Shown piece after piece: positions 12,630-53,152 of a DNA stretch of 64,000 bases; within the stretch, counting starts at the first letter, position 1; every line of letters begins with the position of its first letter. The stretch is from NCBI RefSeq assembly GCF_022387135.1, contig NZ_CP092462.1, positions 3,286,001 to 3,350,000 of the forward strand. Direction: 5' to 3'. The position numbers and the translations under genes were made by a program. This DNA is from Comamonas sp. B21-038 (lineage in GTDB: Bacteria > Pseudomonadota > Gammaproteobacteria > Burkholderiales > Burkholderiaceae_C). The notes under the pieces are model-generated. The model saw only the letters and a list, made by a program, of their open reading frames with translations. It was not told the origin of the DNA and did not search any database.

Positions 12630-12788
12630 GGCGAGGCGGCACGACGACAAAGACATATCCATTATGAATGACATGCCGATAAATAAGCATTAGACCAAAT
12701 ACCTCGCCCCGGGCACACTGGGCAGCTGATTTCTCCCATCCCCCTGATTCCCCGTTTCCCTGATTCCACGCCGTCCGGCACACCGACT

Positions 12789-14039
12789 ATGAGCAACCCC
12801 TTTACCCCCGATCTGCTGTGGCAGCTGGCCGATGACTTCAACACCCCGCTGTGGGTGTATGACGCGCACACCATCCGCCAGCGCATCGCACAGCTGCAGG
12901 CTTTTGATACGGTGCGCTTTGCCCAAAAGGCCTGCTCCAACATCCATGTGCTGCAGCTGATGCGTGCGCAAGGCGTCAAGGTCGATGCGGTCTCGCGCGG
13001 CGAAGTGCTGCGCGCGCTGGCGGCCGGCTACCAGGGCGGTTTTGGCGAGCCGTCCGACATCGTGTTCACCGCTGATGTGATGGACGAGGCCACGTTGGCC
13101 ACCGTGGTCGAGCACAAAATCCCCGTCAATGCCGGCTCCATCGACATGCTGCACCAGCTGGGCCAGGCATCGCCCGGCCATGCGGTCTGGCTGCGCATCA
13201 ACCCCGGTTTTGGCCATGGCCATAGCAACAAGACCAATACCGGCGGCGAGCACAGCAAGCACGGCATCTGGCACAGCGACCTGACGATGGCGCTGGCAGT
13301 CATTGCCGAGCGCGGCCTGCAGCTGGTGGGTCTGCACATGCACATCGGCTCGGGCGTGGACTACGGCCACCTGCAGGAAGTCTGCGGCGCGATGGTGCAG
13401 CTGGTGCAGCGCACCCACACGGCCGGCCACCGCCTGCAGGCCATCTCGGCCGGCGGCGGCCTGTCCATCCCCTACAAGGAGGGCGATGCCACCATCGACA
13501 CCCAGCACTACTTTGGCCTCTGGGATGCGGCGCGCAAGCAGGCCGAGGCGCTGGTGGGCCACCACCTGGGGCTGGAGCTGGAGCCGGGCCGCTACCTGGT
13601 GGCCGAATCGGGCGTACTGCTGGGCACGGTGCGCGCCACCAAGGATGCCGGCAGCAACCACTTTGTGCTGGTCGATACCGGCTTCAACGAGCTGATGCGC
13701 CCGTCGATGTACGGCAGCTACCACGGCATGCATGTGCAGCGCCGTGGCGTCGGTGTGCTGCCTGCGCAGGGCGAAGCCGTCGTCGCCGGTCCGCTGTGCG
13801 AATCCGGTGATGTCTTCACCCAGGGCGAGTCCGGCGTGGTGCTGCCCCGTCCGCTCGGTGATGCGCAGGTGGGCGATCTGCTGGTGATCCACGACACCGG
13901 TGCCTACGGCGCCTCGATGTCCAGCAACTACAACAGCCGCCCGCTGGCCGCCGAGGTGCTGGTCGAAGACGGCAAGGCGCGTCTCATCCGCCGCCGCCAG
14001 ACCGTCGAAGAACTGCTGGCGCTGGAGCTCGGCCTCTGA
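12789..14039 (+). CDS. lysA: diaminopimelate decarboxylase
   Basis: 416 residues, nearly the length of E. coli LysA (420), and closely similar to it: RFAQKACSN with PLP-lysine K47, PGFGHGHSNKTNTGGEHSKHG, GLHMHIGSGVDY, the glycine-rich AISAGGGLSIPY and the catalytic GPLCESGDVF cysteine. The enzyme decarboxylates meso-diaminopimelate to L-lysine in the cytoplasm. This is the gammaproteobacterial-type LysA. Burkholderiales usually also carry a second lysA near cyaY, so this may be a regulated extra copy (inference). Its TGA at 14037-14039 directly abuts the stop of the convergent MocR gene. Confidence 0.95.
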   Translation: MSNPFTPDLLWQLADDFNTPLWVYDAHTIRQRIAQLQAFDTVRFAQKACSNIHVLQLMRAQGVKVDAVSRGEVLRALAAGYQGGFGEPSDIVFTADVMDEATLATVVEHKIPVNAGSIDMLHQLGQASPGHAVWLRINPGFGHGHSNKTNTGGEHSKHGIWHSDLTMALAVIAERGLQLVGLHMHIGSGVDYGHLQEVCGAMVQLVQRTHTAGHRLQAISAGGGLSIPYKEGDATIDTQHYFGLWDAARKQAEALVGHHLGLELEPGRYLVAESGVLLGTVRATKDAGSNHFVLVDTGFNELMRPSMYGSYHGMHVQRRGVGVLPAQGEAVVAGPLCESGDVFTQGESGVVLPRPLGDAQVGDLLVIHDTGAYGASMSSNYNSRPLAAEVLVEDGKARLIRRRQTVEELLALELGL

Positions 14040-41082: not shown

Positions 41083-41425
41083 CGCATATTAGCCGCTCTA
41101 CGGCTGCCATCCAGCGTAGTGGCGCGCAGCAATGCCCGCCGATTCTTCGGCCATTCCTTGGAACTTATCCACAACCTGGCCACTCCAACCGTCCTGAAAG
41201 CGCATACGGGTGTCAGACAGCACCCCGCCCACTGCGGCTGCCGCCGTAAAGAAACTTGAAGATGCTCAAAAACAGGAGCAACGCCTCCTTCACCGGCGCC
41301 GTTTTCAGCGTTGCTTAGCTGAAACTTAACCCCCCGCATACTGCACCGCAGCATGGGAACTCCCACAGCATCTAGGGACTCCTACCGGTGTTACTATGTA
41401 TCGCATAGACGAAAGGACTTCTAGC
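41083..41425 (+). other. rpoH upstream region and leader
   Basis: About 340 bases between cutA and rpoH, with no ORF of its own. It contains a perfect DnaA-box sequence TTATCCACA at 41165-41173 and, near the rpoH start, a leader that can pair with the ribosome-binding site (see separate entries). No convincing -35/-10 pair for sigma-32 was found; an AACTTAACCCCCCGCATA stretch at 41323-41340 only loosely resembles one. Confidence 0.45.
41165..41173 (+). promoter_or_regulatory. DnaA-box sequence upstream of rpoH
   Basis: TTATCCACA, a perfect match to the TTATNCACA consensus, 253 bases upstream of the rpoH start. In E. coli DnaA represses two rpoH promoters through such boxes. Functional role here is inference. 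Confidence 0.4.
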
Positions 41426-41428
41426 GTG
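41372..41428 (+). promoter_or_regulatory. candidate RNA thermometer hiding the rpoH ribosome-binding site
   Basis: CTAGGG (41372-41377) can pair with TTCTAG (41419-41424), and TCCT (41380-41383) with AGGA (41414-41417), separated by a small internal loop; AGGA is the Shine-Dalgarno sequence and GTG 41426 follows. This gives an imperfect helix of about ten pairs with two G-U wobbles around a 30-base loop, the design expected of a heat-melting rpoH leader. Predicted by eye only. Confidence 0.4.
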
Positions 41429-42373
41429 ACAACTCATTCTGGAGCCGCCATCCCCTCTACCGCACTGGCTCCTGCAAACCCATGGTCGTTGGTACCACCC
41501 CTGGGCAATCTGGACGCATACATCACTGCGGTCAACCGCATCCCCATGCTGACCCCCGAGGAAGAGCTGGGCTATGCGAAGAAACTCAAGGAAAACGGCG
41601 ATGTCGAGGCCGCAGGCCGCCTGGTGCTCTCGCACCTGCGCCTGGTGGTATCCATTGCCCGCCAGTACATGGGCTACGGCTTGCCGCACGGCGATCTGAT
41701 CCAGGAAGGCAATGTCGGCCTGATGAAGGCCGTCAAGCGCTTTGACCCCGATCAGGGCGTGCGCCTGGTCAGCTACGCGATGCACTGGATCAAGGCCGAG
41801 ATCCACGAATACATCTTGAAGAACTGGCGCATGGTCAAGGTGGCAACCACCAAGAGCCAGCGCAAGCTGTTCTTCAATCTGCGCTCGATGAAGCAGGGCT
41901 TCAAGGCGGAAGCTGGCATGGAAGACGGTGCCATGCAGCGCGAGACGCTCTCCGAGAGCGAAATCGACGCGATGGCCGCGCATCTGAATGTCAAGCGCGA
42001 AGATGTGATCGAGATGGAAACCCGCCTGTCGGGCGGTGATGTGCTGCTTGACCCCAGCCCTTCCGATGACGGCGAGCAAGCCTACGGCCCCATTGCCTAT
42101 CTGGCTGATGCATCGCATGAGCCGACCGCGATGATCGAATCGCGCCAGCGCGATTACCTGGCTACCGATGGTATCCAGGAGGCCCTGGCCACCCTGGACG
42201 AGCGCAGCCGCCACATTGTGGAAGAGCGCTGGCTCAAGGTGAACGACGATGGCTCGGGCGGCATGACTCTGCACGACCTAGCTGCAGTTTATGGTGTCAG
42301 CGCCGAGCGGATTCGCCAGATCGAATCGGCAGCCATGAAGAAAATGCGCAAGGCATTGGCAGAGTATGCCTAA
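41426..42373 (+). CDS. rpoH: RNA polymerase heat-shock sigma factor (sigma-32)
   Basis: 315 residues from GTG 41426, preferred because GAAAGGA sits 8 bases upstream; the frame also has ATG 41396 with no RBS. Region 2 (GRLVLSHLRLVVSIARQYMGYGLPHGDLIQEGNVGLMKAVKRFDPDQGVRLVSYAMHWIKAEI) is followed by the diagnostic RpoH box QRKLFFNLRS and a region 4 helix-turn-helix (MTLHDLAAVYGVSAERIRQIE). It directs transcription of chaperone and protease genes. Followed by a terminator at 42435. Confidence 0.97.
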   Translation: MTTHSGAAIPSTALAPANPWSLVPPLGNLDAYITAVNRIPMLTPEEELGYAKKLKENGDVEAAGRLVLSHLRLVVSIARQYMGYGLPHGDLIQEGNVGLMKAVKRFDPDQGVRLVSYAMHWIKAEIHEYILKNWRMVKVATTKSQRKLFFNLRSMKQGFKAEAGMEDGAMQRETLSESEIDAMAAHLNVKREDVIEMETRLSGGDVLLDPSPSDDGEQAYGPIAYLADASHEPTAMIESRQRDYLATDGIQEALATLDERSRHIVEERWLKVNDDGSGGMTLHDLAAVYGVSAERIRQIESAAMKKMRKALAEYA

Positions 42374-42434
42374 ATAGGCAAAGAATATCCCCAAGGATAT
42401 ATTGATATCCAGAGGGCATTAAATACAATAATTA

Positions 42435-42467
42435 ACGCACAGACCTGTCGGTCTATGCGTTTTTTTT
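42435..42467 (+). terminator. rho-independent terminator after rpoH
   Basis: ACGCAcAGACC, TGTC loop, GGTCTaTGCGT with one mismatch, then a run of seven or more T. Confidence 0.9.
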
Positions 42468-42536: not shown

Positions 42537-43508
42537 ATGACATTTAAATTACCTCGCCGTCTGATGGTGGCCACCCTCGCCGCCCTATGGGCCAGCACCG
42601 GCGCGCTGGCAGCGGACAACTGGCCGAGCAAACCCCTGCATCTGATCGTCGGCTTTCCAGCCGGGTCGTCGCCTGACCTGACCGCCCGCGCGCTGGCCGA
42701 GCCGCTGGAAAAAGCGCTGGGCCAACCGATCATCGTCGAGAACAAGGTCGGGGCCGGTGGCAATATCGCTGCCGAATATGTGGCGCGCGCGACCGACGGC
42801 TACACCTTCAGCGTGATGATCAACGGCAATATGACGATTGCCAAGCTGCTCAATCCGTCGATCCGCTATGACCCGCTGACCGATCTGCAGCCTGTAGGCC
42901 TGATTGGCGTGGCACCGCTGGTGCTGGTGGCGCCGGCCAAGGCGCCCGAGGGCAAGGCCTTCTTCGACGCCGCCACCCAGGCGGGCAGCAGCTGGAGCTA
43001 TGGCTCGCCCGGCGTAGGCACCATTGGCCACCTGGGCATGGAGCTGCTCAAAAGCCGCGCGAAGATCAAGCCCGAGCACATCCCCTACCCTGGCTACCCC
43101 CAGGTGTTCAATGGCATCCAGGGCGGCGACCTGCAGCTGTCGATGCTGCCCCCGGCGCTGGCGATGAACCAGATCCAGGCCGGCAAGCTGCGCGGCATTG
43201 GCGTGACCTCTGCCGCGCGCAGCCCGCTGGCCCCCGGCCTGCCCAGCCTCAAGGAGTTGGGCATTGGCAACTACGACATGGAAATCTGGAACGCCGTGGC
43301 AGCGCCCAAGGCCATGCCCAAGGCCCATGTCGACAAGTTGGCCGCTGCCGTGGGCGAGATCGTGCGCAGCCCCGACATGCGCCAGAAGCTGGCGCTGCAG
43401 GGCTGGCAGGCGGTCGGCAGCTCCCCCGAAGGCCTGAAGAACCGCATTGATGCCGATGTGAAGGCGCTGGGCGCCATCATCAAAGAGCAGAACATCCGCG
43501 CGCAATGA
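42537..43508 (+). CDS. Bug-type tripartite tricarboxylate transporter substrate-binding protein
   Basis: 323 residues. Signal peptide (LAALWASTGALAADN) and Bug fold: WPSKPLHLIVGFPAGSSPDLTARALAEPLEKALGQPIIVENKVGAGGNIAAEYVARATDGYT. These periplasmic proteins bind carboxylates and other small acids. Genes for the TctA/TctB membrane subunits are not nearby, so it may feed a remote transporter or act as a sensor. Its stop overlaps the next ATG (ATGA at 43505), so it belongs to the lipid-type operon that follows, which is unusual for a Bug protein. Short leader after the rpoH terminator. Confidence 0.9.
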   Translation: MTFKLPRRLMVATLAALWASTGALAADNWPSKPLHLIVGFPAGSSPDLTARALAEPLEKALGQPIIVENKVGAGGNIAAEYVARATDGYTFSVMINGNMTIAKLLNPSIRYDPLTDLQPVGLIGVAPLVLVAPAKAPEGKAFFDAATQAGSSWSYGSPGVGTIGHLGMELLKSRAKIKPEHIPYPGYPQVFNGIQGGDLQLSMLPPALAMNQIQAGKLRGIGVTSAARSPLAPGLPSLKELGIGNYDMEIWNAVAAPKAMPKAHVDKLAAAVGEIVRSPDMRQKLALQGWQAVGSSPEGLKNRIDADVKALGAIIKEQNIRAQ

Positions 43509-44260
43509 CGGCCGCCCAAGTCTTCTCCGATCTCAGCGCCTGGCAGGTGATGGCCTGGGGCCTCGTGTTCTTCAGCGCGCTGTACCTGATCGGAGGACTG
43601 GGCATGACGGCGCTCACCCGCTTTCTGCAAAAGCGTGGCATTGGCCGGGTGCTCGATACCCGGCCGCTCAAGCCCGACCAGCTGCGGCGCGAATGGCGCC
43701 AATCCTTTCATTCCATCCTGGTGTTTGGCCTGGGCATGGTCGTGCCCTGGGGCTTTGTACAGCTGGGCTGGGCGCATTTCGCCATCGCCCCCAGCGGCTG
43801 GCAGATCGCCATCGAGATCTGGGTGCTGCTGATCTGGAACGATGTGCACTTCTGGATCAACCACCGCCTGCTGCACACGCGCTGGTTCAAGCGCTTCCAC
43901 GGCGACCACCACCGCTCGGTCGTGGTCACGCCGTGGTCGACCTACAGCTTCCACCCGATCGAGGCGATGATGCTGGGCAATGTGATCCTGCTGCCGATGG
44001 TGCTGCATGACTTTGCCTTCTGGTCCCTCGCTTCGGTGCCGGTGTTCAGCATCTTCCTCAACGCAGTGGGCCATGCCAATTACGACTTCTTCCCACATGT
44101 GGGGCCCCGCCACCCGCTCGCTGCCAGCCGCCGGCACCACCTGCACCATGCCCGGCCTGCCGGCAACTATGGCTTTGCGCTGGCCTTCATGGACCGGCTG
44201 ATGCGCAGCGAAGCCGACCCGCTGCCGCCACGCCCGGCCCCAGGCCGTCCCGCTGCTTGA
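43505..44260 (+). CDS. fatty acid hydroxylase / sterol desaturase superfamily membrane protein
   Basis: 251 residues with several membrane helices and the eight-histidine diiron signature: HFWINHRLLH (HxxxxH-like), FHGDHHRS (HxxHH), a lone His in VGHANYDFF, and RRHHLHHARP (HxxHH). The family hydroxylates or desaturates long-chain acyl or sterol substrates with O2. The ATG overlaps the upstream Bug gene stop by four bases and the desaturase follows after 10 bases, so the three are translated together. Substrate unknown. The last 20 residues are Pro/Arg-rich. Confidence 0.88.
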   Translation: MTAAQVFSDLSAWQVMAWGLVFFSALYLIGGLGMTALTRFLQKRGIGRVLDTRPLKPDQLRREWRQSFHSILVFGLGMVVPWGFVQLGWAHFAIAPSGWQIAIEIWVLLIWNDVHFWINHRLLHTRWFKRFHGDHHRSVVVTPWSTYSFHPIEAMMLGNVILLPMVLHDFAFWSLASVPVFSIFLNAVGHANYDFFPHVGPRHPLAASRRHHLHHARPAGNYGFALAFMDRLMRSEADPLPPRPAPGRPAA

Positions 44261-44270
44261 ACCGGTCCGC

Positions 44271-45227
44271 ATGACCCGCGACGACAGCCTGCCCCAGCCC
44301 GCCACCGCCCCCCGCAAGCTGCCCCGGCTGCGCCATTGGCGTGACTGGCAATCGCTGCTCTACATGCTGGCGCTGCCGCTGATCGCCGCCTGGCAGTGGC
44401 AGCATGGTCTCGTCTGGTGGCTCTACCTGGTCGCGCTGTTTCTGACTCTGGGCATCGGCGTCATCCACCACAACCACACCCATCTGCGCATGTGGACGGG
44501 CCCCCACAGCCGCTGGCCCAACCGTGCCACCGACTATGCGCTGACCCTGCTGCAGGGCCACCCCACCTTTGTGTTCTGGCCCGCCCATGTCGGCAACCAC
44601 CACCGCTACAAACATGGCGAGCAGGACATCGCCCGCACCTACCGCTTTGGGGGCGACACCAACCACCTCTGGGGTTACCTGGTCCATCCGCTGCAGGCTG
44701 CCTGGGTGCTGTACCCGCTGTTCATCCGCTGGCTCCGTGGCCTGCGCCAACGGCATCCGGGCGCGTTTCGCTACTGCATGGGCCAGTACGCGCTGTGGCT
44801 GGGCAGCTGGGCGGCTCTGCTGGCGCTGGACTGGAAAAAGGCGCTGCTCTTCGTCATCGTGCCGCAGCTCCATGGCCTGCACTGGCTGCTGGCCACCAAC
44901 TACCTGCAACATGCCCATGCCGATGGCCGCAAGCCCCCCAAGCCGGAAAACGATACCGGCAGTGGCATGCTGAACTACGCACGCAATTTTGAGGGCATGG
45001 TCAACCCGTTGCTCTTTAATATTGGCCTGCACACCGCCCACCATGAATGCCCGCATGCACACTGGTCGGCGTTGACCCGCCTGCATGCCGATGAATACCG
45101 ACACCGGGTCCACCCGGTGCTCAATGAGGCAGGCCTGTTGCCGTATATGGCGCGGGTCTTTGTAGGAGGGTTGGTGCGCCGATCGGCCCGCAGCCGGTCG
45201 CTGATGCCGCCTATGGAGAAAAAGTAG
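44271..45227 (+). CDS. membrane fatty acid desaturase
   Basis: 318 residues, four or more membrane helices, with three histidine boxes of the desaturase family: HHNHTH (about 66), HVGNHHRYKH (about 105), HTAHHECPHAHW (about 260). Such di-iron enzymes introduce double bases into acyl chains, or hydroxylate them, at the cytoplasmic face. It lies 10 bases after the hydroxylase-type gene and 6 bases before the ketosynthase fusion, clearly one operon. Which acyl carrier (CoA, ACP, lipid) is used is not visible. Confidence 0.88.
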   Translation: MTRDDSLPQPATAPRKLPRLRHWRDWQSLLYMLALPLIAAWQWQHGLVWWLYLVALFLTLGIGVIHHNHTHLRMWTGPHSRWPNRATDYALTLLQGHPTFVFWPAHVGNHHRYKHGEQDIARTYRFGGDTNHLWGYLVHPLQAAWVLYPLFIRWLRGLRQRHPGAFRYCMGQYALWLGSWAALLALDWKKALLFVIVPQLHGLHWLLATNYLQHAHADGRKPPKPENDTGSGMLNYARNFEGMVNPLLFNIGLHTAHHECPHAHWSALTRLHADEYRHRVHPVLNEAGLLPYMARVFVGGLVRRSARSRSLMPPMEKK

Positions 45228-45233
45228 TCATCT

Positions 45234-47177
45234 ATGCCAGTCGCATACTCGCAGGTCTATATCGAATCCGCCGGTCACTTCATGCCCGGTGCCCCCGTCG
45301 CCAATGACGGCATGGATGCCTATGTGGCTCCGCTCAACCGGCTGTCCGAACGCATCAAGCGCCGCATTCTCGCGGAAAACGGCATCCAGCAGCGCCACTA
45401 TGCGATTGCGCCCGATGGCAGCACCACCTACAGCAATGCGCAAATGGCCAAGGGCGCTATTGAAGCAGCATTGGCGCAAGCCGCAAGGCCGCTGGCCGAC
45501 ATCGGCTTTCTGGCCAGCGGTTCATCGGGTGGCGATGCGCTGATGCCCGGCTTTGCCAGCATGATCCAGGGCGAGATGGCCGCCCCGCCGATGGAGCTGC
45601 TCAGCGTGCATGGCGTCTGCGCGGCCAGCGTCGGCGCGCTGCAAAGCGCGGCGCTGGCGGTGGAGCATGGCACGCATGGCCATGCGCTGGCGGTGGCCAG
45701 CGAGATGCCGTCCCGGCTCTTCAAGCGTTCGCGCTACGCGGGCCAGGACTACAACACCGATTTTGATGCGCACTTTTTGCGCTGGATGCTGAGCGATGGC
45801 GCCGGCGCCGTGCTGTTGGGCCAGGGCGCCGCGCTGCCCCAGCGCCCCGACCTGCGCCTGAAGCTGCGCTGGACACACCAGCGCAGCTTTGCCGGCGACT
45901 ACCCCGTGTGCATGCAGCTGGGCCTGACGCATGACCGCCAGCGCAGCCACCTGGATTTCCCCTCCTGGGCCGACGCCGAGGCCGCGGGCGCGCTGTCGCT
46001 GCGCCAGGACATCCGCCTGCTGCCCCACCTCTTTGATGTCTGCATCCACGAGTACGCCCGCATCGCCCACCAGGGCTGGCTGCCCGAGCGCGGCATCGAC
46101 CACTTTCTGTGCCATTACTCGTCGGAGAAATTCATCCCCGTCGTCGATGAGCTGCTGAACAAGGCCCAGCTGTCCATCCCGCGCGAGCGCTGGTGGAGCA
46201 ACCTGGCCTGGCGCGGCAACACCGGTGCGGCCTCCATTTTTGTGATGATCGCCGAGTACCTGCAGACCCAGCATGCGCGCCTGAAACCCGGCGACACGAT
46301 ACTCTGCTTTGTGCCAGAGTCCGGCCGCTTTACCGCTGGCTATATGCTGCTGGAGGTGGAGAACCACACGCCCGCCAGCCCGGCAGCAGCCCGTACCAGC
46401 ACGCCTGCCCAGCGGGCCACCCCCGCCGCCGCCGCTGCACAAAGCGCGCTGATCGCCCCACCCCATGACCCTGCCGCCGCCCCGGCCGGCCTGGCCCCCT
46501 TGCTGACCGAGCTGGCCAGCATCTGGCATGACTACCGCTCCCAGGTCTGGCGCACGCCGCTGGTGCACCGCATCCACAGCGGCCAGATCCGGCAGGCCGA
46601 CTATGTGCGCTGGATGAGCCAGTGGGTGCCCCAGGTGCGCGAAGGCAGCCTGTGGATGCGCGAAGGCGCGTCCTCGCTCACAGGCGCCTATGCCGAGCTG
46701 GCCGCGCTGATGGGCGTGCATGCCAGCGAGGAGCAGAACGACTTCAAGATCCTGCACCAGGACTATCTCAACGCCGGCGGCACGCAAACCGACATCCAGC
46801 AGCTGCGCCGCAACCCCGGCGGCGAGGCGCTCAACAGCTACCTGCACAGCCTGGCGGCCACCCCCAACCCGATTGGGCTCCTGGGTGCCATCTACATCAT
46901 TGAAGGCACGGGCCAGCGCATCGTTCCCAGCCTGCTGCCGCTGCTGCGCCAGCACCTGGCACTGGGACCGGACTGCTTCCGTTTTCTGGAATACCACGGC
47001 GCCAATGACGAAGACCACCTGGAGCGCTGGCTGATGGCCGTGCAGATGGCCATGGCGCTGGACGAGACTGGCACTGCCGCTGCGGCGATTGCCGCCACCG
47101 CACGCCATACCGCGGCGCTCTACCTGATGCAGTTCCAGCACATTCTGGATGCCACGGCCACGGAGCCCGCACGATGA
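45234..47177 (+). CDS. ketoacyl-ACP synthase III fused to a haem-oxygenase-like diiron domain
   Basis: 647 residues in two domains. Residues 1 to about 375 have the FabH/KAS III thiolase fold with a complete Cys-His-Asn triad: C129 (HGVCAASVGA), H294 (FLCHYSSEKF), N329 (RGNTGAASIF). The residue usually Asn after His (HQAN) is replaced, as in many non-FabH KAS III enzymes. An Ala/Pro/Thr linker (about 379-420) joins a C-terminal domain of about 220 residues resembling TenA/PqqC/iron-containing redox enzymes (HDO). Its candidate metal ligands are E500 or D503, H508, E557 (YIIEGTG) and H588-x3-D592-x2-H595. HDO enzymes such as UndA and CADD perform O2-dependent oxidations of amino or fatty acids. 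The next gene overlaps by ATGA. Product unknown. Confidence 0.85.
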   Translation: MPVAYSQVYIESAGHFMPGAPVANDGMDAYVAPLNRLSERIKRRILAENGIQQRHYAIAPDGSTTYSNAQMAKGAIEAALAQAARPLADIGFLASGSSGGDALMPGFASMIQGEMAAPPMELLSVHGVCAASVGALQSAALAVEHGTHGHALAVASEMPSRLFKRSRYAGQDYNTDFDAHFLRWMLSDGAGAVLLGQGAALPQRPDLRLKLRWTHQRSFAGDYPVCMQLGLTHDRQRSHLDFPSWADAEAAGALSLRQDIRLLPHLFDVCIHEYARIAHQGWLPERGIDHFLCHYSSEKFIPVVDELLNKAQLSIPRERWWSNLAWRGNTGAASIFVMIAEYLQTQHARLKPGDTILCFVPESGRFTAGYMLLEVENHTPASPAAARTSTPAQRATPAAAAAQSALIAPPHDPAAAPAGLAPLLTELASIWHDYRSQVWRTPLVHRIHSGQIRQADYVRWMSQWVPQVREGSLWMREGASSLTGAYAELAALMGVHASEEQNDFKILHQDYLNAGGTQTDIQQLRRNPGGEALNSYLHSLAATPNPIGLLGAIYIIEGTGQRIVPSLLPLLRQHLALGPDCFRFLEYHGANDEDHLERWLMAVQMAMALDETGTAAAAIAATARHTAALYLMQFQHILDATATEPAR

Positions 47178-48097
47178 CCGACTTCCGCGACATTCCCCAC
47201 GACGAGCGCGATCCCAACCCCTGGCTGGCGCTCTACCTGGACGACAGCACGCCGCTGCCCGACCATGTCAAGGCAGCCTGGCTCAAGGATTCGAGCAGCC
47301 GCTCGCGCCAGTTTCTGCTGCCCTTCATCCGGCCGATTGCACGGCTGAGCATCATCCTGATCCAGATCCTGAAGGTGCTGCTGCCCAAGCGCTGGGCGCA
47401 TTCCAGGCTGCTGCATCGCACCCTGGCCTTCAGCATGAACCGCTTTGTCTCGCCCGAGGCGAACTGGCTCATCATGCGCCACTTCCACCTGGGCTCGCAG
47501 ATCCTGAGCTTTATCGGCGCCAATGCCCCCACGCCCGTGCCCACACAGCCACTGGCACCGATGGAGATCGACGACATCAAGGACGAGCTGTTCCTCAAGC
47601 ACGACCTGAACCTGTTCAACTTTGTCATCCGGCTCAACACCAGCTTGCGCACCCACGGCCAGCACATGGGCCCGGTGGCCGAGCCCAACTTTGGCATGCT
47701 CTGCGATCCGCCGCTGGAGCTGGCGGCGATGCCGCAGGGGCGGTTGAACATTCTCGATCTGCAAAGCGCCATCGAAATCTACACGCCGGTCTACCAGCTG
47801 CTGCTGACCGACAACGATTTCTGGCGCGCCAGCAATTCGCTGCAGCTCGATGAGACCGTCGCCATCTATGCGGCCAAGATCCTGTCCTCGCCCGAGCATT
47901 TGGTGATGCTCAACAACAAGCACCCGCTGGTGCCGCTGTCCACCCTGCGCGCCGGCCACCGCCTGGTGCTCCATGGCCTGTCCACCGAGATGCTGCACTG
48001 CCTGCTGATGCGCATGGCCACCGGTGAGACCCCGCTGCCCAGCCGCGAAATCGCCAAGACCCGGCAGGCCGCCGGCCGTTCCCCCCAACCCAGCTGA
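47174..48097 (+). CDS. conserved-looking protein of unknown function in the KAS III-HDO operon
   Basis: 307 residues, not recognised. Mostly helical; one hydrophobic stretch (LSIILIQILKVLLP, about 58-71) may be a membrane-binding helix, not a clear transmembrane span. Other features: SPEANWLIMRHFHLGSQ, NLFNFVIRLNTSLRTHG, and AIEIYTPVYQLLLTDNDFWRASNSLQLDETVAIYAAKIL. No catalytic motif is obvious; RHFHLGSQ and HDLNLFNF are candidates. The ATG overlaps the preceding stop (ATGA), so translation is coupled to the ketosynthase-HDO protein, suggesting a partner subunit or tailoring enzyme. Confidence 0.8.
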   Translation: MTDFRDIPHDERDPNPWLALYLDDSTPLPDHVKAAWLKDSSSRSRQFLLPFIRPIARLSIILIQILKVLLPKRWAHSRLLHRTLAFSMNRFVSPEANWLIMRHFHLGSQILSFIGANAPTPVPTQPLAPMEIDDIKDELFLKHDLNLFNFVIRLNTSLRTHGQHMGPVAEPNFGMLCDPPLELAAMPQGRLNILDLQSAIEIYTPVYQLLLTDNDFWRASNSLQLDETVAIYAAKILSSPEHLVMLNNKHPLVPLSTLRAGHRLVLHGLSTEMLHCLLMRMATGETPLPSREIAKTRQAAGRSPQPS

Positions 48098-48121
48098 GCC
48101 ACCGCCCTCCACCACCTTCCG

Positions 48122-48622
48122 ATGCAGACGCCGCCCCCCGAACACCCCATCCCCGCACGCTGGATCCCTTGCGGCGCCGGCCATGTCGCCGTCTATGGCA
48201 CCTTGCGCGCCGGCGGCGTCAACGACATCACCCGCCTGGCCGACCAGCTCGCCTGCGTGGGCCGCACCCTGCTGACCGGCACCTTGTATGACCTGGGCTG
48301 GTACCCCGGTTTGCAACTGCAGGGCAGCGGCCTGGTGCTGGCCGAGGTCTACCCGTTGAGCGATGCGCTGGAGCAGGCGATGGACCGCATAGAAGGCATC
48401 TGGCCTGTCGATATTGGCGAATACACCAAGCGCGTGCTGACCCTGGATGTGGAGCTGGTCAGCGGCGGCCAGCAGCCGCTGGAGGTGCTGGTCTACGAGG
48501 CCCTGCCCCCCGCCCTGCACGGACGCACGCAGATCACCGCGCAGGACTGGCTGGAATGGATTGCGCAGCAGGGTCGCGAGCACCCCGATACGGCATTCAG
48601 CTTGAACACGCCCCCGGGCTAA
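48122..48622 (+). CDS. gamma-glutamylcyclotransferase-like protein
   Basis: 166 residues. N-terminal VAVYGTLRAGG is the substrate-loop motif (YGTLR/K) of the GGCT/AIG2 fold, followed by GTLYDLGWYPGL, VLAEVYPL and a dimer-region acidic residue in MDRIEG that fits the catalytic glutamate. These enzymes cyclise gamma-glutamyl groups to 5-oxoproline or act on gamma-glutamylamines. It lies 24 bases after the unknown gene and is probably the last gene of the operon; a role in that pathway is only possible. Convergent with ureG (24 bases). Confidence 0.8.
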   Translation: MQTPPPEHPIPARWIPCGAGHVAVYGTLRAGGVNDITRLADQLACVGRTLLTGTLYDLGWYPGLQLQGSGLVLAEVYPLSDALEQAMDRIEGIWPVDIGEYTKRVLTLDVELVSGGQQPLEVLVYEALPPALHGRTQITAQDWLEWIAQQGREHPDTAFSLNTPPG

Positions 48623-48646: not shown

Positions 48647-49306
48647 TCAGCCCAGCAGCAGACCCTGCTTTTCGATAAAAGCGACCACCTCGTCCAGACC
48701 ATCCAGCGTCTTCAGGTTGGTCATCACAAAGGGCTTGGTGCCCTTGGGGCCGCTGCGCATGCGCTCGGTGTCGCTGCGCATGACATCCAGATTGGCACCG
48801 ACATAGGGCGCCAGATCGGTCTTGTTGATCACAAACAGATCGCTCTTGGTGATGCCGGGACCGCCCTTGCGCGGGATCTTCTCGCCGGCCGCCACATCGA
48901 TCACATAGATCGTCAGGTCCGACAGCTCGGGGCTGAAGGTCGCAGCCAGGTTGTCCCCGCCCGATTCGATAAAGACGATGTCGGCATCGGGAAACTGGCC
49001 CAGCATGCGGTCAATCGCTTCGAGGTTGATCGACGCATCCTCGCGGATCGCCGTGTGCGGGCAGCCGCCCGTCTCCACCCCCATGATGCGCTCGGCCGGC
49101 AGCGCGCCGCTGACGGTCAGCAGGCGCTGGTCCTCCTTGGTGTAGATGTCGTTGGTGATGGCGATCAGGTCCCATTTGTCGCGCATGGCCTTGCACAGCA
49201 TCTCGAGGATGGTGGTTTTGCCCGAGCCCACGGGCCCGCCGATGCCGACGCGCAGCGGAGGCAGCTTTTTGCTGCGGTGGGGAATGTGGTGCAGTGCAGT
49301 GCTCAT
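48647..49306 (-). CDS. ureG: urease accessory GTPase UreG
   Basis: 219 residues. P-loop [33 protein letters not shown] with the Cys-Pro-His nickel motif, [20 protein letters not shown] and the [11 protein letters not shown] guanine site. It couples GTP hydrolysis to nickel delivery to apo-urease with UreD-UreF. It starts inside the end of ureF (ATGA-type overlap, 49303-49306) and is the last gene of the leftward urease operon. Confidence 0.97.
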
Positions 49307-50010
49307 GATCGAAAAAGCCGTGAGTATTGGTGTTCATGCCGGGCCGAGAGAATGGCCAGCATCGGAGAAAAAGCCTGGCGCTGGTCATCGCCCAGCGCCA
49401 GCGCATGGTCGGCCGCGCCCGGTATCGCCTGCGCCAGCCGCGCCAGAATGCGCTGGCCGGCGCTCTGCCCCAGCGGTACCGATTTGATGGCCGCCTGCAC
49501 CATGTTCTCGGCCCAGCCAAAGGCATAGGCCAGCAGCGCATCGCGCGCGCCCGCCCCTGCCAGGTGCGCGGCCAGCGCAAAGGCCAGCGGGTAGCTCGCA
49601 TCCTCGGCCGCCAGCCAGTGCACCAGCGCCAAGGCCTGGGCATCATCGGCATAGCGGTTCTGCAGCCAGGCCACCAGCGAGCGGCCCATCTGCTCGGTCT
49701 GCAGGCGCAGCTCACTGCTTTCGCGCGTCTGCAGCACCCAGGCATTGAGGGCAACAATGCGCGCGCGCTCATCGCGCTGCCAAGCCTGCATCGCCTGGGC
49801 CAGCACCGCCATATCGCCCCGTGCCTGGCTCAGCTGCAGCTGCTGGTCAATCCAGTCTGCGGCCTGCTCCTCGTTGCCTACCAGCGCGGCATTCACGCCC
49901 GCCTCCAAGCCTTCCGAATAGGAGAAGCCACCAATGGGCAAAGCTGGCGAGGCCAGCCATATCAGCTGCAAAAAACTGGCGGGCGAGAGGCTGAGGGGCT
50001 GCATGCTCAT
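49303..50010 (-). CDS. ureF: urease accessory protein UreF
   Basis: 235 residues. All-helical Ure[25 protein letters not shown] at the N-terminus, [10 protein letters not shown] and the C-terminal [21 protein letters not shown] tail that contacts UreG/UreD. It acts as a bridge or GTPase regulator in the activation complex. It overlaps ureE upstream (50007-50010) and ureG downstream by four bases each. Confidence 0.95.
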
Positions 50011-50582
50011 CCGTGGTGGTGCGGATGGGCATGGCCATGCCCGTGGTCATGGGGGTGGTCATGGCTGTGCACATGACCATGTCCATGGTGGCTGTGGCCA
50101 TCGTTGGTGACATGCCCGCCATAGGCGCCGCCTTCCGGCTCAAAGGGCAGCTCCGCCTCTACGACGGTCATGTGCATGCTGCGCAGCATGTCGGCCAGCA
50201 CATGGTCGGGCTCGATCTTGAGGTGGTCGGGCTGCAGCTCGATCGGCACATGGCGGTTGCCCAGGTGGTAGGCGGCACGCATCAGGTCAAAGGCCGAGCC
50301 ATGCTGCGCGCAGGCGCTGATGTGCAGCACTTTCTGCGGCGCGGCCTGCACGACGACCACCGAGCCGTCTTCGGCGACCAGCACATCACCACCGCGCACG
50401 GCCTGGCCGCGTGGCAGAAAAATCGCCAGCGCGCGGCCGCTGCTGTCGGTGGCCGAGAAGCGCGACTTCTGGCGCACATCCCAGTCCAGTTCGACAAAGC
50501 TTGCGCGCTTGCGCAGGGCCGGCGCCAGGCCTTGGCCACCGGGCAGACATTTGGAGACCTGCAGCATCGCTTGCGCCGTCAT
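50007..50582 (-). CDS. ureE: urease nickel chaperone UreE, His-rich tail
   Basis: 191 residues. The peptide-binding N-domain ([28 protein letters not shown]) and metal-binding domain with [16 protein letters not shown] and [13 protein letters not shown] are followed by a C-terminal tail holding 17 histidines in about 35 residues. That tail stores nickel, as in Klebsiella UreE. Overlaps the GNAT gene stop (ATGA) and ureF start. Confidence 0.96.
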
Positions 50583-51061
50583 GACAGCTCCAGGCGCATG
50601 AAGCAGCTGTTGGGATCGGGCTGGTAGCTGCCAAACGGCGCGCAGTGGGCAAAGCCATTGCGCGCGTAGAAGCGGCGCGCCGGCGCAAAGAAGGTCTCGG
50701 TACCCGTCTCCAGGCTGATGCGTGCAGCCCCCATCACCCGGGCTTGGGCCAGTACATGGTCCAGCACCTGCTGGGCTGCGCCCGAGCCGCGCTGCTCGGC
50801 GCCCACCCGCATCGATTTGAGCTCCAGATGGCCGGCATCCAGGGTCTTGAGCGCGCAGGTGGCGACCAGCGCCTGGGGCTCTTGCCCGGCCGTCCAGGCG
50901 GTCCAGAGGTACATTCCGGGCGCACGCAGCTGCTCCGAGTCCAGCGCATGCACGCTCTCGGGCGGCGAGATACGGCGCATATCGCTCAGGTGCTCTTCCA
51001 AAAACGCCAGCACGCGCGGGTCGGTCACCGGGTCGCGCTTGAAAATCAATGGGCTTGCCAT
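50579..51061 (-). CDS. GNAT family N-acetyltransferase within the urease operon
   Basis: 160 residues. GNAT fold: beta strand LVATCALKTLDAGHLELKSMRVGAEQRGSGAAQQVLDHVLAQA contains the acetyl-CoA loop (QRGSGA), and RRFYARNGFAHC is the C-terminal motif B. It lies 14 bases after ureC and its stop overlaps ureE ATG, so it is cotranslated with urease genes although it is not a known urease accessory factor. Substrate unknown; it may have moved into the operon. Confidence 0.9.
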   Translation of the reverse strand: MASPLIFKRDPVTDPRVLAFLEEHLSDMRRISPPESVHALDSEQLRAPGMYLWTAWTAGQEPQALVATCALKTLDAGHLELKSMRVGAEQRGSGAAQQVLDHVLAQARVMGAARISLETGTETFFAPARRFYARNGFAHCAPFGSYQPDPNSCFMRLELS

Positions 51062-51075
51062 GGGTCTCTACCGCT

Positions 51076-52794
<1,719 letters not shown>

Positions 52795-52843
52795 CAGAAC
52801 CATCCTGTCTTAGAGCGCAGGCTCGCAGGCTGCGTGCTGCGCA

Positions 52844-53152
52844 TCATTCCAGCGCCCCTTGCACCAGGCCGCGAAAGCCGTAGATCTGCCGGTCACCACC
52901 GATGTCCACCAGCTCCACCGTGCGCTGCTGGCCGGGCTCAAAGCGCACGGCCATGCCGCTGGCAATATGCAGGCGCATGCCGTGGGCCGCCTGGCGGTCA
53001 AACACCAGGCCGGCATTGGTCTCGGCAAAGTGGTAGTGCGAGCCGACCTGGATGGGCCGGTCGCTGGCGTTGTGCACCACCAGGCTGGTGGTGCGGCGCC
53101 CCGGGTTCAGCGTATGTTCGCCGGCGTCCAGCAGCAGTTCACCTGGGATCAT
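52844..53152 (-). CDS. ureB: urease subunit beta
   Basis: 102 residues, the usual length. [19 protein letters not shown] at the N-terminus, [11 protein letters not shown] and [27 protein letters not shown] near the end match UreB. It is a structural subunit of the (ABC)3 trimer. It lies between the HupE/UreJ gene and ureC, 49 bases before the ureC start. Confidence 0.97.

Follow-up and report, generated by a model that had tools for sequence, protein, structure and literature searches.

Known systems and the Comamonas locus

The closest described systems to the locus discussed here revolve around ketosynthases (KSs) of the StlD/DarB type. StlD of Photorhabdus serves the formation of isopropylstilbene, and its conserved Glu has a catalytic role. 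In the dialkylresorcinol (DAR) pathway, known for flexirubin, arcuflavin and HPR, DarB is the DAR cyclase and DarA the DAR aromatase, as given in the gene table of PMC3949708. The superfamily of haem-oxygenase-like diiron (HDO) enzymes has over 10,000 members, of which only about a dozen are functionally validated, and in most HDOs the ligands are three His and three carboxylates; ketosynthase, fused, fusion, polyketide and resorcinol are words that do not occur in the accessible text of the 2026 review from which this is drawn (PMC13108848). Here, I describe a locus of Comamonas sp. B21-038 (5.18 Mb genome, single contig, NZ_CP092462.1) in which a KS of the StlD/DarB type and an HDO-like domain are encoded as one protein. 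It lies at 42537-48622 of the window, that is, of the whole 64,000-nucleotide stretch analysed (contig positions 3,286,001 to 3,350,000, forward strand), and takes in genes for a Bug/TctC periplasmic binding protein (Bug), a membrane fatty-acid hydroxylase (FAH), a membrane fatty-acid desaturase-like enzyme (DES), the KS-HDO fusion, a DUF6999 protein and a GGACT-family protein (Table 1).

The KS family and the HDO superfamily are known; the fusion, its third partner DUF6999, the missing DarA and a change of HDO ligands are undescribed in the literature searched. The same literature, where most subscription papers were outside reach, yielded no named product for this gene set, in agreement with the remark of the initial annotation that the arrangement is not known from any named pathway.

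The account put forward here, tentatively and at somewhat short of an even chance for the chain as a whole, is that of a lipid/polyketide system. Two acyl thioesters from primary metabolism would enter the KS, which, like DarB and StlD, would close a ring and most likely yield a 2,5-dialkyl-cyclohexane-1,3-dione-like product. The attached HDO would oxidise this product, released or still bound, with O2, most likely replacing the DarA aromatase; DUF6999 would assist or perform a further step, and in Beta lineages FAH and DES would act as tailoring enzymes on the alkyl chains or on the lipid product. An acyl-derived product had been proposed at the outset and is supported as the probable outcome. 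The terminal alkene or amino-alcohol named along with it finds no support, an alkene being still compatible with the data, and both are rejected as the best reading because the KS is StlD/DarB-like.

A conserved block and its core

Thirty-seven related loci, some ending at contig edges, were found with the fusion protein as query; the nearest named ones by protein identity are those of Comamonas koreensis and Comamonas sp. JUb58 (98% over the fusion). Of the 37, 36 have FAH, 34 have DES and 36 have DUF6999; the one locus without DUF6999 (L022; labels in L denote loci and those in G genomes) stops at a contig edge. A Bug gene of at least 80% identity lies upstream in 18 (Comamonas, Delftia, metagenome-assembled genomes and one locus labelled only Burkholderiaceae) and GGACT downstream in four. 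Because of these counts, the conserved unit in this lineage is FAH, DES, KS-HDO and DUF6999 (43505-48097). The four genes keep an identical order even where FAH and DES are only 50-60% identical. Loci with this order carry the labels Comamonas, Delftia, Collimonas, Iodobacter, Chitinibacter and Bordetella; two Lysobacter loci lack DES but have FAH, and in Corticibacter neither gene is nearby. The recurrence of this block exceeds chance. That we are dealing with unrelated neighbours that happen to share an orientation is extremely improbable: it is refuted for the block, the order of which holds across the loci just named, and the triad within it holds far beyond these; it is true of Bug and GGACT. 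Thus, what is left of the six-gene operon initially proposed is the four-gene block; Bug, a lineage-specific first gene that is probably not part of the conserved system, and GGACT, a local neighbour only, are rejected as parts on grounds of synteny.

Whole-genome searches for DUF6999 gave matches in 9 of 398 genomes of a phylum sample, 6 of 289 of the class of G223 (presumed to be Alphaproteobacteria, consistent with a match in Caulobacter vibrioides in a control search), 7 of 369 of the window's own class, here taking in the Beta group as well as Gamma, and 6 of 17 of the order of G528. The four samples overlap and comprise 24 distinct DUF6999 genomes, in 20 of which a single contig carries KS, HDO and DUF6999 together. 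In G1012 and G1013 the KS is on another contig than the HDO and DUF6999, which are together; G703 retains only interrupted fragments of KS and DUF6999. The only orphan is G723, where a lone DUF6999 gene adjoins a transposase-like gene, named by eye (L077, 9889-10947 and 11181-11912), and no KS or HDO of the triad type occurs elsewhere in the genome. On a plasmid of Pseudoalteromonas sp. THAF3 the triad forms three consecutive genes. The core beyond this lineage is therefore the triad of StlD/DarB-type KS, HDO and DUF6999, the last accompanying the KS-HDO pair almost constantly.

That the two domains are joined in Comamonas, as first annotated, is confirmed by Pfam matches to both in one protein. 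Among 61 loci scanned, KS and HDO share one open frame in 46 and are adjoining separate genes in 11, one or both being incomplete or missing in four; the fused count is biased, because the query that yielded 37 of the 46 was itself the fused protein. Fused forms occupy two separate places of the KS tree, namely the Beta/Gamma group and two related presumed-Alpha genomes (L081 and L082), which group with separate-gene relatives with support 98/94. By this tree, there was more than one event of fusion or fission, a sign that KS and HDO are functionally coupled.

Such a core alters the original view of an operon built around the fusion, the hydroxylase and the desaturase: the KS-HDO pair keeps its central place, shared with DUF6999, and this triad also occurs without the other two. 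FAH and DES nonetheless hold up as two membrane His-box enzymes. FAH carries the clusters HFWINH, HGDHH, HVGPRH and HHLHH, and DES carries HHNHTH, HVGNHH and HTAHH; both combine these motifs with Pfam scores over cut-off, as expected of membrane diiron enzymes. A PDB search found no solved structure related to FAH and, for DES, one chance match (E 0.86). The co-occurrence of the two enzymes in 34 of the 37 related loci would suit a role in membrane-lipid modification, the KS supplying an unusual acyl chain or headgroup precursor, FAH, DES and HDO altering lipids, and DUF6999 serving as a carrier or assembly factor associated with the membrane. In the DUF6999 model, residues 43-69 form a helix, hydrophobic by eye, that points the same way, as does a small His-rich protein beside the triad in three Gamma loci. 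However, nine presumed-Alpha loci (L051, L059-L063, L081-L083; some on short contigs) hold the triad without FAH or DES match, so that membrane tailoring by these enzymes is not the core function, and this explanation appears quite unlikely.

FAH and DES are also unmatched in L052, L058, L076, L078 and L079, and L050 has a broken-up DES match only. The His-rich protein, of about 185 residues and membrane-like by eye, is encoded directly upstream of the KS in the three Gamma loci (Table 1; L052 and L078 belong to genomes of the window's own class), and no Pfam match was obtained for the two of the three that were scanned; perhaps it stands in for FAH and DES. An LplT/Aas-type protein near L028 and L051 (c29, named by eye) was dropped as a partner because two genes separate it from the triad in L028.

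The ketosynthase

Although first described as FabH-like, the KS domain, a ketosynthase III indeed, is of the StlD/DarB type, as judged from NCBIfam PRK06816 and from StlD (5gk0), its closest solved relative in a PDB sequence search. FabH-type structures follow at E 4e-12 and weaker. A Foldseek search with the model of the fusion, of moderate quality (mean pLDDT 73.8, pTM 0.54), places StlD best among the matches listed (E 3e-21 to 1e-20, TM-score by target length 0.75-0.78). All of the 52 rows, taken from 51 loci, keep Cys129, Glu157, His294 and Asn329, which align with the corresponding StlD residues. The triad KS shares both its family and its condensing residues with the DAR pathway; unlike the Comamonas protein, the StlD chain is a ketosynthase alone. 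Glu157 does not discriminate the StlD/DarB type, because the FabH-like protein of the same genome has Glu too. The triad KS rows and 15 DarB-type rows have 43 columns in common; among these are Arg183, Cys226, Met227, Asn323 and Glu362, all five missing from that FabH-like KAS III. By its family-model and PDB matches, the KS stands closer to StlD/DarB than to housekeeping FabH, so that a ring-forming condensation is indicated and not chain initiation.

A case for a linear route can be made at this point. After StlD, the next-best fold matches among those listed are FabH and OleA structures, and an OleA-like KS would make a beta-keto acid or 1,3-diketone without a ring, from which the HDO would remove carbon or to which it would add unsaturation to give an alkene, a ketone or a modified acyl chain. 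UndA, an HDO acting on fatty acids according to the accessible text of PMC13108848, provides a precedent. Yet the sequence match clearly favours StlD over OleA (2e-80 versus about 1e-9), the residues shared with DarB are kept, and the triad HDO lacks the E-x2-H helix-1 pair seen in all 11 neighbouring HDOs aligned. The linear route is thus an unlikely one.

A 274-genome sample splits cleanly into 15 StlD/DarB KSs at 543-621 bits and four KSs at 313-413 bits. All four low-scoring loci have HDO and DUF6999 within the same 4.1 kb; the canonical DarB loci have a triad-type HDO or DUF6999 in none of 15, at about 4 kb each, short loci that would miss remoter partners. In 12 of the 13 canonical loci in which the gene caller predicted DarB, it adjoins a gene of 280-350 codons, the products of which are alike. 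The DarA query was named from this place beside DarB, as in the gene table cited above; no Pfam or NCBIfam model gives it a name. Models for DarG or DarH match beside the DarA-type gene in four loci scanned (L095, L097, L100, L101); the neighbour scanned in L094 is, by contrast, DUF2058. A DarA profile gave nothing in 16 of the 17 DUF6999 genomes tested (17 of the 24, one being the orphan G723); the one genome with a match, G379, has it on a different contig from the triad. The window's own genome gave no match. Where the DAR pathway has DarA, then, the triad has HDO and DUF6999, with no DarA-type gene found in the genome and no DarG/DarH adjoining. That DUF6999 might be a disguised DarA was rejected, there being no BLAST similarity (best E 1.7).

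DarA-like relatives on three Streptomyces plasmids are annotated as hypothetical. On one Streptomyces plasmid (L087, 7703-15349) an StlD/DarB-like KS (35% identity) is followed by a DarA-like gene, along with carrier proteins, FabF, a P450 and an FAD monooxygenase, apparently a separate pathway.

The HDO domain and its ligands

The resemblance of the triad HDO to characterised HDOs (UndA, BesC, SznF, CADD) takes the form of its Haem_oxygenas_2 match, at 40.2 bits against a cut-off of 28.9. PDB 3dde is matched at E 1.5e-7 by single sequence, improving with a profile (Table 1), and the predicted model has helices at 418-635. The C-terminal domain had been expected to fold as an HDO: these sequence matches and the helical model support that in part, whereas the matches listed from the fold search of the fusion model are all ketosynthases, with none to HDO folds among them.

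His496, Glu500, Asp503, Glu557, His588, Asp592 and His595 (fusion numbering) are invariant in 51 of 51 rows. In 11 neighbouring HDOs aligned, the same positions hold Tyr496, Glu500, His503, Glu557, His588, Asp592 and His595 in all 11. The triad HDO thus keeps five of the six positions of the usual three-His/three-carboxylate set; the helix-1 His is replaced by Asp503, and an invariant His lies seven residues earlier. His496 may replace the lost helix-1 ligand, in a putative metal site. Along with the fused KS, this ligand change sets the triad HDO apart from characterised HDOs.

An HDO-like domain that is no oxygenase at all, with a structural or metal-sequestering role or one in oxidative-stress protection as proposed for Acinetobacter DtpC, has to be considered, for the helix-1 ligand pair is altered in all members aligned, and DtpC, a predicted HDO, protects dried cells by a mechanism left open in the accessible part of its report (PMC13232832). 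The seven His, Asp and Glu residues invariant throughout, and the steady linkage to a ketosynthase, make this very unlikely.

An HDO family profile, run over apparently the same 398-genome phylum sample as the DUF6999 search, matched 78 genomes. Nine of them, exactly the nine DUF6999 genomes, score at least 300 bits, and the other 69 at most 96 bits; the high scores are partly by construction, because six of the nine genomes supplied profile rows, but the gap above 96 bits does not arise in this way. Eleven of the 69 furnished the neighbouring HDOs aligned above. Remoter relatives of the HDO lie in open frames of 708 (L127, 19-2145) and 684 residues (L135, 1465-3519, minus strand), possibly other HDO fusions. 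On an Alteromonas plasmid (L090) a related HDO is encoded between AMP-binding and SDR genes.

DUF6999

The protein of 307 residues left as unknown in the initial annotation belongs to Pfam DUF6999. Its model is helical (pLDDT 80, pTM 0.80). PDB profile searches gave nothing at E up to 10, and in Foldseek no PDB fold reached E 0.001, the best match having E 2.1; the idea of a known fold was dropped. No paper on DUF6999 came up in the literature searched. In 28 members (one row incomplete) R102-H103, N117, H143-D144, D195, N221 and D226 are invariant, and N248, R263, H267 and E272 nearly so. Such a polar pattern would suit a catalytic or metal site, although this is a guess from the alignment.

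Weighing the ring-closing account

Several observations weigh against ring closure followed by oxidation in the place of DarA. The KS lies under both StlD/DarB cut-offs (PRK06816, 312.7 versus 450 bits; DarB, 253.6 versus 550), so that a drift of its reaction is conceivable. The residue beside the catalytic His is Cys293 in 51 of 52 rows but Pro in all 15 DarB-type rows. In the KS tree, 22 of 23 triad KSs stand apart from DarB with modest support (87/74), L079 being unplaced, and a Streptomyces KS with a DarA-like neighbour gene joins the triad KSs (92/74); a single triad clade is not rejected (p 0.524), a p value that does not prove that clade either. Family searches of the operon proteins found no carrier protein and no DarG/DarH-type gene. 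Likewise, the non-canonical ligand pattern means that O2 activation by the HDO is not assured, and the stand-alone HDO of Pseudoalteromonas (L058) misses Pfam Haem_oxygenas_2 at E 0.1; its own record names an iron-containing redox enzyme.

A point of comparison is offered by cyanobacterial loci in which CylC dimetal halogenases accompany DarA/DarB. These likewise pair a dimetal enzyme with a DarB-type KS, but they keep DarA, and the CylC outgroup in the accessible part of that report is AurF, a ferritin-like diiron enzyme and not an HDO (PMC8406957).

A bolder version of the ring-closing account, which I regard as somewhat unlikely, sees here a new lipid-forming machine. A DarB-type ring would be handed to a fused HDO with re-arranged ligands (His496/Asp503) performing a novel O2 step, e.g. 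aromatising or cleaving the ring, and DUF6999, with its invariant polar core of R-H, H-D, D, N and D, would represent a helical enzyme or carrier of a new kind. No HDO is known for an O2-driven step such as aromatising or cleaving a KS-built ring.

Gene layout and neighbours

Positions and junctions are as initially annotated: the six plus-strand genes are joined by 4-base ATGA overlaps at 43505 and 47174, the other gaps being of 10, 6 and 24 bases, and from this spacing their co-transcription is likely. TctC, FA_hydroxylase, FA_desaturase, ACP_syn_III_C, Haem_oxygenas_2, DUF6999 and GGACT all pass their curated Pfam cut-offs, which bears out the gene identities first given apart from the two corrected above; ACP_syn_III, the model for the N-terminal part of the KS, is under its own (20 versus 24 bits).

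Table 1. Features of the locus; positions refer to the window unless another locus is named
Feature	Position	Strand	Evidence
Hairpin followed by T-run on the plus side	42434-42461		Inverted repeat, 12-nt arms 92% complementary; terminator-like site
Bug/TctC periplasmic binding protein gene	42537-43508	+	Pfam TctC E 1e-50
FAH, membrane fatty-acid hydroxylase/sterol-desaturase family	43505-44260	+	Pfam FA_hydroxylase E 1e-19
DES, membrane fatty-acid desaturase-like enzyme	44271-45227	+	Pfam FA_desaturase E 2e-20
KS-HDO fusion gene	45234-47177	+	Pfam ACP_syn_III_C and Haem_oxygenas_2 in one protein
StlD/DarB-type ketosynthase domain, residues 1-376	45234-46361	+	StlD 5gk0 E 2e-80; NCBIfam PRK06816 E 3.5e-93 (below cut-off)
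HDO-like domain of the fusion	46500-47174	+	Haem_oxygenas_2 E 4e-10; 3dde E 2e-13 (profile)
DUF6999 gene, helical product	47174-48097	+	Pfam PF22523 E 3e-128
GGACT-family gene	48122-48622	+	Pfam GGACT E 8e-16
His-rich membrane-like protein	L058 (Pseudoalteromonas) 12660-13214		
His-rich membrane-like protein	L052 11953-12501	-	
His-rich membrane-like protein	L078 2626-3171		

A sigma-factor gene (sigma-32-like by eye; 41396-42373) lies directly upstream, and wherever Bug is at least 80% identical (18 loci), it and the operon follow a sigma-factor gene. The hairpin is probably the terminator of the sigma-factor gene and the 5' border of the operon. Inside the block the plus strand has one terminator-like site, a weak one at 44417 within the DES gene; over both strands there are seven such sites, versus 3.2 expected by chance. 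Urease genes on the minus strand (48647-53152) converge on the 3' end of the operon; ureG adjoins it in only four of the 37 related loci. A phage or defence role was dropped: among five of the six operon proteins scanned (Bug excluded), PADLOC gave no match, and GGACT was alone in matching a PHROG.

What the triad may mean

To sum up, a ketosynthase physically joined to an HDO would reveal the likely substrate of the latter, which is usually the missing piece in this superfamily. If the HDO does take over the step of DarA, a DarB product could be completed by either of two chemically distinct routes. The DUF6999 family, for its part, gains a first functional context, and its match in Caulobacter vibrioides places it in a tractable laboratory species.

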